A DNA stretch of 64,000 nt from Leptolyngbya sp. BC1307 (GTDB lineage Bacteria; Cyanobacteriota; Cyanobacteriia; Phormidesmidales; Phormidesmidaceae), in contig NZ_NRTA01000008.1 in the NCBI RefSeq assembly GCF_002286735.1, forward strand, positions 1 to 64,000, in the 5' to 3' direction. The notes beneath the pieces are model-generated. The model was not told the DNA's origin. It did not search any database and saw only the letters and a list, made by a program, of their open reading frames with translations. The number at the start of each line of letters is the position of its first letter. The stretch's first letter is position 1. The position numbers and the translations under genes were made by a program. This document shows, piece after piece, positions 1,596 through 18,663 of the stretch.

Positions 1596-1624
1596 TTGAC
1601 GCCTACAAAATAAGACTGTACGCT
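1596..1624 (+). promoter_or_regulatory. Sigma70-type promoter of structured leader, copy A
   Basis: TTGACG (1596-1601) and TACGCT (1619-1624) are separated by 17 bp. The same two hexamers in the same order, with 18 bp between them, occur in front of leader copy B (17310-17339), so the promoter is conserved together with the leader. Confidence 0.65.
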
Positions 1625-1629
1625 ATTCG

Positions 1630-1812
1630 TCATAGTTGTTGCCGCGTGGAACCGTCGCAATTGCTCAACCGCTCGAAAATTTAGTCGCTGCCGCTGATTG
1701 CTTGGAACCAATCAACGACAGCTAGCCCACTGAACTGACAACAGCAGTCCAGGTGACTACGGCCATGATGCCATAGCCGCCCTGACTTTTAGTAAGTTTG
1801 GGCGGCTAAATT
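1630..1812 (+). ncRNA. Structured 5' leader with alternative hairpins, copy A (candidate cis-regulatory RNA)
   Basis: This segment lies between a promoter and the ORF at 1847 and has a diverged homologue at 17345-17530. Helices seen in both copies despite sequence change: TGATTG/CAATCA (1695-1700 with 1709-1714), matching GTTGG/CCAAC in copy B; and GGTGACTACGGC (1752-1763) with GCCATAGCCGCC (1770-1781), matching GGTTGTGG/CCACAGCC in copy B. The 3' arm of the second helix overlaps TAGCCGCCC (1774-1782), which can instead pair perfectly with GGGCGGCTA (1800-1808). That second hairpin is followed by AATTTTCG and then TTTTTT, so it looks like a terminator. Mutually exclusive pairing is the architecture of an attenuator or riboswitch. 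I do not recognise it as a known Rfam class. Confidence 0.6.
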
Positions 1813-3921: not shown

Positions 3922-5121
3922 AAGAAACTGCGGCGGCCGATTCCGCTGGGGCTGCTGATTGTCGCCGCCGGGTTTGGCATTCGCTACTGGCTGACCCGGC
4001 CTGACGACAGCGCCATTGAGCTGAGCGGACGACTCGAAAGCTACGAAAGCGATTTGGGCGCTAAAGTCGGCGGCAAAGTGAAGTCTGTGGCCGTGCGGGA
4101 AGGCGACAGGGTGAAACAGGGCCAGGTGGTTGCCCAGCTTGACGATCAAGAACTCAGGGCACAGCTAGAGGCCGCTAAAGCCAAGGTGAATGCGGCGCAG
4201 CAACAGGTGACGCAGGCCGGGCTACAGATAGAGGTGGTAGAAAGCCAGGTGCAGGAAGCGCAGCTAACCTTAGAGCAGTCTCAGGGAGACACTACTGGCC
4301 GGGTCAGTCAGGCTGAGGCGACGGTAGCCACGGGGCAGGCGCAGCTTTCATCGGCCCAAGCCCAGGCACAGCAAGCCCAATCAGCCTTAGCGCTGGCACG
4401 AACAGACCGTGATCGCTTCTCTACTTTAGTCTCCCAAGGCGCAGTCTCCCAGCAACAGTTCGACCAGGCCCAAACCCAGTTTGAAACGGCTCAAGACACG
4501 CTAACCGCGCAGCAAGCCGCCGTCGCCGCCGCCCGTCAGCAGGTCGCCGCCAACCAGGGAGCCCTCACCCAGACTCAAACCAGCCAGCTCAACCCAGACA
4601 TTCGCGCTGCTCAGGTCACCCGCACGCAAAAGCAGCAGGCCCAGGCCCAGGCTCAGCTAGCCGCCGCCCAAGCAGAACTGGCACAGGCAAAAGCAGCTCA
4701 AGCTGAAATCGAATCGCGGCTCAGCGCCCTAGCAATCACCAGCCCCATTAATGGCGTTGTGCTCACCCGCACAGTAGAACCTGGCGAAGTAATCTCGCCG
4801 GGAACGACTGTTCTCACGGTGGTCAATCTAGAAGAGGTTTATCTACGCGGCTATATTCCTGAAGGAGAAGTTGGCGAAGTGCGGGTTGGTCAAGCCGCAC
4901 AGGTGTTTTTAGATTCTGCGCCGGAGCAGCCGCTAGCGGCAACAGTGACGGCCATTGATACTGAAGCCTCTTTTACGCCTGAGAATATCTACTTTGAAGA
5001 GGATCGGGTAACGCAGGTGTTTGGGCTAAAGCTAGAGATTGACAACCCGAGCGGCTTTGCCAAACCCGGCATGCCCGCTGACGGCAAGATTTTGCTAGAA
5101 GCCGCAGAGGCAAGTGAATGA
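3919..5121 (+). CDS. HlyD-family membrane fusion protein, start deleted
   Basis: The periplasmic adaptor of an exporter of the YbhG/ABC-2 type. A membrane anchor (LRRPIPLGLLIVAAG, near 3928-3972) is followed by the lipoyl half-motif GAKVGGKVKSVAV, a long Gln/Ala-rich coiled-coil hairpin (4180-4720) and the second lipoyl half (ITSPINGVVLTRTVEPGE). The frame is open from 3871, but no ATG or GTG precedes the anchor. The first possible codon is TTG 4054, which would remove the anchor. It overlaps the next ORF by ATGA. Probably non-functional, or expressed from an unusual start. Confidence 0.8.
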   Translation, partial: KKKLRRPIPLGLLIVAAGFGIRYWLTRPDDSAIELSGRLESYESDLGAKVGGKVKSVAVREGDRVKQGQVVAQLDDQELRAQLEAAKAKVNAAQQQVTQAGLQIEVVESQVQEAQLTLEQSQGDTTGRVSQAEATVATGQAQLSSAQAQAQQAQSALALARTDRDRFSTLVSQGAVSQQQFDQAQTQFETAQDTLTAQQAAVAAARQQVAANQGALTQTQTSQLNPDIRAAQVTRTQKQQAQAQAQLAAAQAELAQAKAAQAEIESRLSALAITSPINGVVLTRTVEPGEVISPGTTVLTVVNLEEVYLRGYIPEGEVGEVRVGQAAQVFLDSAPEQPLAATVTAIDTEASFTPENIYFEEDRVTQVFGLKLEIDNPSGFAKPGMPADGKILLEAAEASE

Positions 5122-6083
5122 CAGTAGCGCCTCTCAAAACAACGGCTGAAATGGAAACGGCAGATAGCGCGATCTCCGTCCACAGTCTGCGCAAATGCTA
5201 CGGCTCGACCGAAGCGCTCAAAGGCATTGATTTTACAGTAAAGCGCGGCGAGATCTTTGGCCTGATCATTCCGCCCGACTTTGCCCCAAAGCTCGCAGCG
5301 GGTAAATCTGTGGATGTGCAAGTGCTGATTGACGGCGTTGATGCTAATACTGCCGGTATCGCCAACGGCTACACCAATCAGCTAGTCAATCGCTACGGTC
5401 AAACCCTGGGCCAAACTCTGGGCCAACCTGAGAGAGTGCCGCCGGTTCAGACAGCGGTGATTTTTCTCTACAATCCCGGTTTGCTCAGCAGTTGGTTTTT
5501 CGTGCCGGGTGTGATTGGCGTAGTCCTAACGCTGACCGGCTCATTAGTCTCGTCATCGACGGTCATTCGTGAAAAAGACGTTGGCACGCTGGAGCAGCTT
5601 TTGATGACGCCCGCCGCCGGTTGGGAGATTTTGACGGCTAAGATTGCGCCGCTGTTTGTATTGTCAATGGGCGATGTACTGCTGGCTTCGGCGATTGGCC
5701 GCGTGGTGTTTGGATTGCCGTTTCGCGGTAATTATTTTCTGTTTCTGGCGCTGTCGGGCATTTACGTGTTTGTCTGCATTGGCATCGGTATTTTGTTGGC
5801 GACGGTCTCTCGCAATCAGCAGCAGGTGATTTTGACTTCGTTTTTCTTTAACGTGCCGCTGATTCAGCTTTCAGGGGCGATCGTCCCCATCGAAAGCATG
5901 CCAAAATTCTTCCGTATTCTCTCCTTCTTCGACCCCTTACGGCACTACGTCACCATCGCCCGCAGCCTCATCCTCAAAGGCGTTGGCGTCGGCGTCCTGC
6001 TCCCCGAAATCGTCGCCCTCACCGTCTTCGCAGTACTGCTATTAGGCGTCAGCATCAGCCGATTTCGCGCTCAGCTCAACTGA
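5118..6083 (+). CDS. In-frame fusion: first 50 residues of an ABC ATPase joined to an ABC-2 permease
   Basis: Residues 1-50 are the start of a YbhF-type ATPase (SVHSLRKCYGSTEALKGIDF, ending GEIFGLI) and stop just before the expected Walker A. The sequence then continues as the middle of an ABC-2 permease (IPPDFAPKLAAGKSVDVQVL), followed by about five membrane segments including the conserved REKDVGTLEQLLMTP. A typical operon has a complete ATPase and two permeases between these points. The 321-residue product has no nucleotide-binding site, so the exporter cannot be powered as encoded. An in-frame internal deletion is the simplest explanation. The short in-protein repeat GQTLGQTLGQ lies at 5397-5427. 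Confidence 0.85.
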   Translation: MTVAPLKTTAEMETADSAISVHSLRKCYGSTEALKGIDFTVKRGEIFGLIIPPDFAPKLAAGKSVDVQVLIDGVDANTAGIANGYTNQLVNRYGQTLGQTLGQPERVPPVQTAVIFLYNPGLLSSWFFVPGVIGVVLTLTGSLVSSSTVIREKDVGTLEQLLMTPAAGWEILTAKIAPLFVLSMGDVLLASAIGRVVFGLPFRGNYFLFLALSGIYVFVCIGIGILLATVSRNQQQVILTSFFFNVPLIQLSGAIVPIESMPKFFRILSFFDPLRHYVTIARSLILKGVGVGVLLPEIVALTVFAVLLLGVSISRFRAQLN

Positions 6084-17309: not shown

Positions 17310-17339
17310 TTGACGCTTTTGAATGGGGGCTGATACGCT
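17310..17339 (+). promoter_or_regulatory. Sigma70-type promoter of structured leader, copy B
   Basis: TTGACG (17310-17315) and TACGCT (17334-17339) with 18 bp spacing: the same hexamers as in copy A. Confidence 0.6.
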
Positions 17340-17344
17340 GTTTT

Positions 17345-17530
17345 TTAGTGATTGCGCTTCTCGCAAGCTGCGGGAACCGGTGCGATCGCTAAACTGCCTC
17401 GAAAAATTTAGCCGCTACCGGCGTTGGGGTCCAGCCAACACCGATAGCTCGCCCCTAACACTGACTAACCAGTGAGAGAGGTTGTGGTCATTTTCCCACA
17501 GCCCCCCTGACTTCTGGCAAGTGTGGAGGA
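17345..17530 (+). ncRNA. Structured 5' leader, copy B (candidate cis-regulatory RNA)
   Basis: Diverged homologue of the 1630-1812 leader, sharing the promoter, the TCGAAAA-TTTAG(C/T)CGCT core and the GACAGCT/GATAGCT-like joint. Helices: CCGGT/ACCGG with GCTAAA/TTTAGC inside (17377-17420 region), GTTGG/CCAAC (17423-17427 with 17435-17439), and GGTTGTGG (17480-17487) with CCACAGCC (17496-17503). The last 3' arm can alternatively pair with GTGG (17523-17526) around an ACTT/AAGT mini-stem that both copies share. The gene behind it is truncated, so this copy may be decaying. It fills most of the spacer after leuA. Confidence 0.55.
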
Positions 17531-17542
17531 AGGCGATCGCTC

Positions 17543-17713
17543 CGCCACATTTTGCTCGGCCACCCCGAAGACGTGCGCCAGACGATCCATCTGCTGCACA
17601 CCCTGCACTATGCCGAAACTGTGCTGTGGAGCCCGGTTATGACCATAGAGGAGCCGCTAATGATTGCGCCTGCCCCCAGTGAAGCGATTAGCCTGCTGCG
17701 GAGGTTAGTCTAA
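17543..17713 (+). pseudogene. Truncated paralogue of the ILLGSP short ORF
   Basis: The frame reads HILLGHPEDVRQTIHLL, LWSPVM and EAISLLRRLV to TAA 17711-17713, clearly homologous to the C-terminal block of the ORF at 1847-2188. No start codon or N-terminal Pro/Thr-rich part lies between the leader and this block. Either the N-terminus was deleted, or translation begins at an internal codon. Confidence 0.7.
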
Positions 17714-18190: not shown

Positions 18191-18393
18191 ATGTATTGCC
18201 TGATCCTTTTGTAGGTGAATTTTTGGCAGTAGAATTTTTCTGCTGAGGCAGGGGTGTTCTGCTGCTATCACTATGCCCGTAGCGACAGACGAAAATTACA
18301 GGGCAATCTCAGTACAACTACAGAAGTTTTGAGTGGGGCAAAAGTGGGGCGCTGCTAATGCTCGTGATTTTACAGGCGAGTAAGGAGTATTTG

Positions 18394-18663
18394 CTACTCT
18401 GCGAGAAGCGTGAACGACTCGCAGAGTAGTGGGAACGACTCACAGAGTAGCGTGAACGACTTATAGAGAAGTGCGAGCTTCACCGCCACAAGTGCGAACG
18501 ACTCACAGAGAAGTGTGAGCTGCTTCGCCATAAGCACGAACGGCTCACAGAGAAGTATGAACGGCTCACAGAGAATCGTGAGCTGCTCGGTGAAAAGTGC
18601 GGGTTGCTCTGGCAGAAGGGCGATCGCTTCCCTGACCAGTGCGAGCTGCCATGTAAGCAGTAG
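18394..18663 (+). pseudogene. Decayed heptad-repeat ORF, copy B
   Basis: In one frame this stretch encodes about eleven heptads such as CERLTEK, CELLRHK and YERLTEN, matching the (K/E)LLxEKx heptads at 2178-2435, and ends in a related WQKG segment. Two TAG codons interrupt the first heptads (18424-18426 and 18445-18447 region). The underlying 21-bp DNA repeats are more diverged than in copy A. No promoter or start was found. The rest of the 18191-18837 spacer holds nothing else recognisable. Confidence 0.65.

Follow-up and report, generated by a model that had tools for sequence, protein, structure and literature searches.

Translational riboswitches, exemplified by the add adenine riboswitch, have an expression platform that sequesters the Shine-Dalgarno (SD) sequence. 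Ribosomal-protein genes are known to possess autoregulatory leaders, and the Downstream-peptide and glnA motifs (RF01704 and RF01739) are known as glutamine riboswitches. The Downstream-peptide motif was described as a cyanobacterial candidate riboswitch located before short unknown ORFs (PMC2864571). The leader analyzed here lies in the window, i.e., the whole 64,000-nt stretch of Leptolyngbya sp. BC1307 DNA presented above, and it resembles each of these systems in part. Like the Downstream-peptide and glnA RNAs, it is a cyanobacterial structured leader that precedes short unnamed ORFs and occurs in many copies (PMC2864571), whereas its five-helix architecture is larger, its ORFs belong to one protein family, and the lineages are different. 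As in the add-type riboswitches, one strand is common to the closing helix P1 and to the SD hairpin; unlike them, the leader is tied to one uncharacterized protein family and reaches tens of copies per genome. It shares with the ribosomal-protein autoregulatory leaders the link between a structured leader and the gene on its 3′ side (here, a family ORF follows 135 of the 138 distinct leaders), but the protein is neutral, not basic, and has many paralogues per genome. By analogy, the leader would work like a translational riboswitch or an autoregulatory leader, and it is a candidate member of either class.

Rfam 15 was searched at the gathering threshold, and no match was obtained, either in the window or among 18 homologous loci representing several families. 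The glnA and Downstream-peptide models did not match positions 1500-1950 even at E <= 10, nor did they match any of the 18 homologous loci at the gathering score. The only sub-threshold Rfam match in 1500-1950 was to Peptidase-S11 RNA (RF03039) over positions 1762-1844, with a score of 18.1 bits, where the gathering score is 34.8, and an E-value of 1.6, which is a likeness at chance level. No description of the leader was found in the open-licence literature. The initial annotation did not recognise the element as a described RNA class, and its absence from Rfam has stood up. The leader, present in neither Rfam nor the papers found, is unusual in its copy number and in its dedication to one unnamed protein family.

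We interpret the element as a translational switch that acts in cis from the 5′ leader of genes belonging to a dispersed family amplified within the lineage, a reading based on sequence comparison and predicted folding, to which we assign a probability of about 0.72. From 5′ to 3′, the order is promoter, P0, P1 5′ strand, P2, P3, P4, P5, toggle (P1 3′ strand), P6 and start codon. The features of the copy studied here (copy A) and of a second, damaged copy (copy B) are as follows:

1596-1849, + strand: copy A element, promoter and ~215-nt structured leader, then short ORF
1596-1601, + strand: -35 hexamer TTGACG (sequence inspection)
1619-1624, + strand: -10 hexamer TACGCT, 17-nt spacer from -35 (sequence inspection)
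1634-1665, + strand: putative P0, hairpin 5′ of the closing helix (copy A MFE; compensating variants among group-1 copies)
1671-1684, + strand: P1 5′ strand (closing helix), GCUCGAAAAUUUAG (native-versus-swapped strand energies; independent sister pairs)
1687-1700, + strand: P2 5′ arm, partner 1709-1722 (sequence-only alignment and phylogenetic-null covariation)
1709-1722, + strand: P2 3′ arm, pairs with 1687-1700 (same basis as the 5′ arm)
1734-1748, + strand: P3 hairpin, 1734-1737 with 1745-1748 (covariation, phylogenetic null)
1755-1778, + strand: P4 hairpin, 1755-1763 with 1770-1778; outer pairs compete with P5
1774-1808, + strand: P5 hairpin, 1774-1782 with 1800-1808 (alignment evidence)
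1806-1819, + strand: P1 3′ strand or toggle, CUAAAUUUUCGUGC, pairs with 1671-1684 or, in P6, with the region 5′ of the start codon
1816-1844, + strand: P6 region 5′ of the start codon, 1820-1827 with 1837-1844, or 1816-1819 with 1833-1836
1847-2188, + strand: downstream ORF of 113 aa, member of the unnamed small-protein family
17310-17522, + strand: copy B, promoter and leader to the P5 loop, then deletion junction (R1 match; paralogue comparison)
17523-17713, + strand: copy B, 3′ remainder of the ORF, with no RBS or start codon

The promoter hexamers were found exactly where the initial annotation had placed them. The interval of 1596-1812 that it gave for the element proved too short, as the element runs to about 1849 and the P1 3′ strand and P6 lie at the edge of that interval or outside it. 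The TACGCT hexamer is identical in 8 of the 9 group-1 copies in the genome. TTGAC was found upstream of 44 of 54 leaders, compared with ~5.6 expected, and it mostly lies ~80 nt 5′ of the core, which makes a start of the RNA at P0 or immediately 5′ of it likely. In copy A, this would put the transcription start at ~1630, just before the hairpin. A strict consensus promoter scanner called no promoter in copy A. The evidence for P0 is weaker than that for the other helices: its region was weakly more stable than shuffled sequences (mean z of -1.3). This value comes from a segment without the promoter; the promoter-containing segment gave no information. At the other end of the leader, P6 of copy A is weak and its SD is poor, while in most other copies P6 is strong and covers the SD. 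An extra GC-rich insertion was seen between the toggle and the start codon in leaders L106, L108, L110, L114, L115, L117 and L118, and it is possibly a small repeat inserted in the P6 loop.

Both copies fold better than their dinucleotide shuffles (z = -3.2 for copy A and z = -4.8 for copy B). Covariation was assayed in 96 distinct leaders from many genomes with our own script, not R-scape, whose null preserves both the tree and each column's number of changes. Six column pairs among the 8001 tested reached E < 0.05; three are located in P2 and three in P3, and almost all of them are Watson-Crick. The homologues thus bear out the covariation that the initial annotation had proposed as a check of its leader. 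More pairs from P2, P3 and P5 were near the top of the list, below the threshold, and the P5 alignment pair 107-136 was seen as A-U, G-C and C-G. The 96-leader alignment was fitted to the structure of the model, which favours that structure; the same helices were visible in the first 20-sequence alignment, made by sequence only. These comparisons point to a conserved structured domain with covarying helices, as is characteristic of riboswitches. The alternative pairing described in the initial annotation for TAGCCGCCC (1774-1782) was recovered with GGGCGGCTA (1800-1808) and, on the upstream side, only in part (1755-1763). The competing P4 and P5 pairings exist, with GCC-type bases in common, and the homologues keep both options.

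The column-wise analysis of the P1 and P6 strands on unstructured MAFFT alignments gave nothing significant, probably because the pairing registers shift, and strand-swap and sister-pair tests took its place. The toggle has two complementary partners, the P1 5′ strand and the sequence that precedes the start codon. This is illustrated by the triplets of 5′ strand, toggle and 3′ region in L100 (CAGAAC/GTTCTG/CAGAAC), L107 (CCC/GGG/CCC) and L103 (CCCAA/TTGGG/TCCCAA). In all 127 leaders, at least two toggle bases are used by both P1 and P6, with a mean of 10.6. When strands were swapped among 55 clusters, the P1 energy changed from -20.9 kcal/mol (native) to -15.1 ± 0.44 kcal/mol and the P6 energy from -19.1 to -13.8 ± 0.41 kcal/mol, each gap being ~13 standard deviations of the permuted mean. 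The control pairing of the 5′ strand with the RBS showed no native gain (-9.1 native versus -10.0 swapped). Since the clusters are related, the swap test was repeated on edge-disjoint sister pairs of the tree. The native partner was favoured in 28 pairs versus 5 for P6 (p 5e-5) and in 23 versus 14 for P1 (Wilcoxon p 0.004; sign test p 0.09), with no native preference for the control pairing. Based on these sister pairs, the comparative case for P6 is stronger than that for P1. In 47 of 53 leaders, at least 75% of the SD is paired in P6, which abuts the start codon. Between the two states, the median gap in predicted energy is 4.8 kcal/mol of about 75, the P1 state being lower, and the energies favour P1 in most sequences without any ligand; for this reason, the RNA might be mostly ON. 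Comparison and energy calculations together indicate a mutually exclusive expression platform of the kind found in riboswitches.

According to the mechanism we propose, the transcript would start just before hairpin P0, and P2-P5 would form inside a multi-branched domain closed by P1 and act as the sensor. Completion of P1 by the toggle would leave the SD free (ON), and its downstream pairing as P6 would hide the SD beside the start codon (OFF). Something bound to the P1-P5 domain would hold P1, so that translation stays on; once P1 is lost, P6 would form. Sequence comparison supports the helices, the toggle's coupling to its two partners, the position of P6 over the SD and the near-exclusive link to the protein; the direction of control and the trigger we infer. 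The trigger is somewhat more likely a protein, perhaps the encoded small protein or its relative acting in autoregulation, than a metabolite, and we favour it weakly because the leader accompanies a single protein family and not a pathway, and because few unpaired bases are invariant. The alternative of a metabolite riboswitch, in which a small molecule would bind the P1-P5 junction and stabilize P1, keeps the same platform and changes only the trigger. We consider it possible, with a clearly lower probability than the main reading. The multi-helix junction closed by P1, the P1/P6 platform and the precedent of the cyanobacterial Downstream-peptide motif before short unknown ORFs (PMC2864571) all agree with it. 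The link to one small-protein family in place of several genes of one pathway speaks against it, as does the small number of nearly invariant unpaired positions, counted on ~58 effective sequences in an imperfect alignment fitted to the covariance model.

The family to which the 113-aa ORF belongs showed no significant profile match in Pfam, NCBIfam or PHROGs. The dN/dS ratio is mostly 0.13-0.33 within subgroups, and therefore the protein is very likely translated and under purifying selection. AlphaFold predicted a beta-alpha-beta domain after a disordered N-terminus, with block pLDDT mostly 84-96 in the domain. Searches of the PDB by sequence and by fold revealed no significant match, the best fold Z of 4.3 being uninformative. 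With a median pI of 6.7, the protein is not basic, which gives no indication of RNA binding.

The covariance model R1, built from 20 leaders of the BC1307 genome, was used for the search of cyanobacterial genomes that the initial annotation had suggested. It matched 51 of the 65 genomes of the order, with up to 52 copies per genome, and the protein profile matched 62 of the 65. In a phylum sample of 386 genomes, the leader was present in 13 (families f1, f4, f5, f11 and f15) and the protein in 32. The leader was thus found in four families besides its own and recurs across many filamentous cyanobacteria. The carriers found via the protein include Phormidesmis priestleyi, Leptolyngbya sp. PCC 7375, Adonisia turfae and Nodosilinea nodulosa. 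When 80 loci were chosen by the protein alone, the leader was located just upstream in 72 of the 74 that had enough upstream DNA, the exceptions being L178 and L179. In the genomes of family f7, which we take to be Nostocaceae, the protein is present with a different and simpler leader, composed of one or two hairpins that contain GCGATCGC and precede the RBS; related genes thus carry a second leader type, unrelated to the first. These GCGATCGC palindromes were found in L232, L234, L236, L238, L241, L242, L243 and L248. As the f7 members have a different leader, the protein family is wider than the RNA, and the protein does not need this RNA. Plasmid-borne members (L270-L278, Nostocales plasmids) were also seen, one located next to parG and several in the vicinity of integrases or tyrosine recombinases. 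The plasmid gene context of the family is variable, with no consistent partner.

The initial annotation gave two copies of the element, which was an undercount. The genome contains 23 ORF copies and 21 strong R1 matches, the latter consisting of 20 intact leaders and copy B. The remaining two ORF copies, on contigs C73 and C94, have lost the leader. The copies form two subgroups with a common layout and different closing-helix sequences. Copy B, the second copy of the initial annotation, is not intact and lacks ~164 nt relative to its closest paralogue on contig C40. Its P5 loop is joined to mid-ORF, and the deletion took the switch, the ribosome site and the start codon. As a deletion derivative, it was rejected as an independent functional example. 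Similar coding-like tandem repeats of the EKCELLGEKRKLL type were seen 3′ of both leader copies (2195-2400 and 18380-18600). Elsewhere in the window, tandem leucine-rich-repeat-like coding repeats run off its edge at 1-500 on the minus strand. At 836-1543, a nucleotidyltransferase ORF (PF01909) is followed by two short overlapping ORFs resembling a frameshifted partner gene, possibly an MNT-HEPN pair. The ORF at 5118-6083 looks as if an internal deletion had fused the beginning of an ABC ATPase to an ABC permease.

For 19 of the 20 leaders of this genome, the nearest relative is in the same genome. With other genomes sparsely sampled, this suggests that the leader was amplified in the lineage. 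This result, the high copy number, those paralogue pairs that are alike only from about -270/-280 to the stop codon, and the occurrence of the protein on plasmids, with some copies near integrases, would also suit a mobile or actively copied element whose RNA serves propagation and not gene control. We regard this explanation as unlikely: no transposase, relaxase or common ends were seen in an unsystematic look, other paralogue pairs are alike over longer flanks, in the manner of an ordinary segmental duplication, phage and viral contigs gave no match to the protein, and the position of P6 over the SD points to translation control. The close predicted energies of the two states would be consistent with an RNA thermometer or a constitutive dampener, in which the P1/P6 balance sets a fixed or temperature-dependent rate without a specific trigger. 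This is quite doubtful, as the conservation of the covarying P2-P5 helices would be needless if only P1 and P6 mattered. The transcription attenuator proposed in the initial annotation, with P5 as terminator and P4 as antiterminator, draws on the strand common to P4 and P5 in copy A and its homologues and is highly improbable, since no terminator was called at 1800-1812 to explain the predicted termination at about 1812, only 5 of 55 leaders, taken one per sequence cluster, have a T-rich tail after P5, and the helix conserved further downstream covers the ribosome site instead, the conserved logic being translational with the toggle paired to the P1 5′ strand or the ribosome-binding site. A conserved intrinsic terminator after P5, made of a GC-rich hairpin and a U-tract, was rejected as a candidate, as no conserved U-tract was found.

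It is rare for a structured cis-regulatory RNA to reach tens of copies per genome, and the present leader occurs in most of the sampled genomes of the order. The translational switch could be extended to a large family of switches in which every copy of a small RNA-binding or signalling protein has a switch of its own, so that a cyanobacterial genome would run tens of RNA-protein circuits in parallel, possibly insulated from one another; this is speculative, and we think it improbable. Should every leader respond to its own protein, a natural set of parallel RNA-protein switches would exist in cyanobacteria. If the leader binds a metabolite, it would represent a new riboswitch class controlling an unstudied protein family. 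Either way, the leader marks a nameless protein family under purifying selection.
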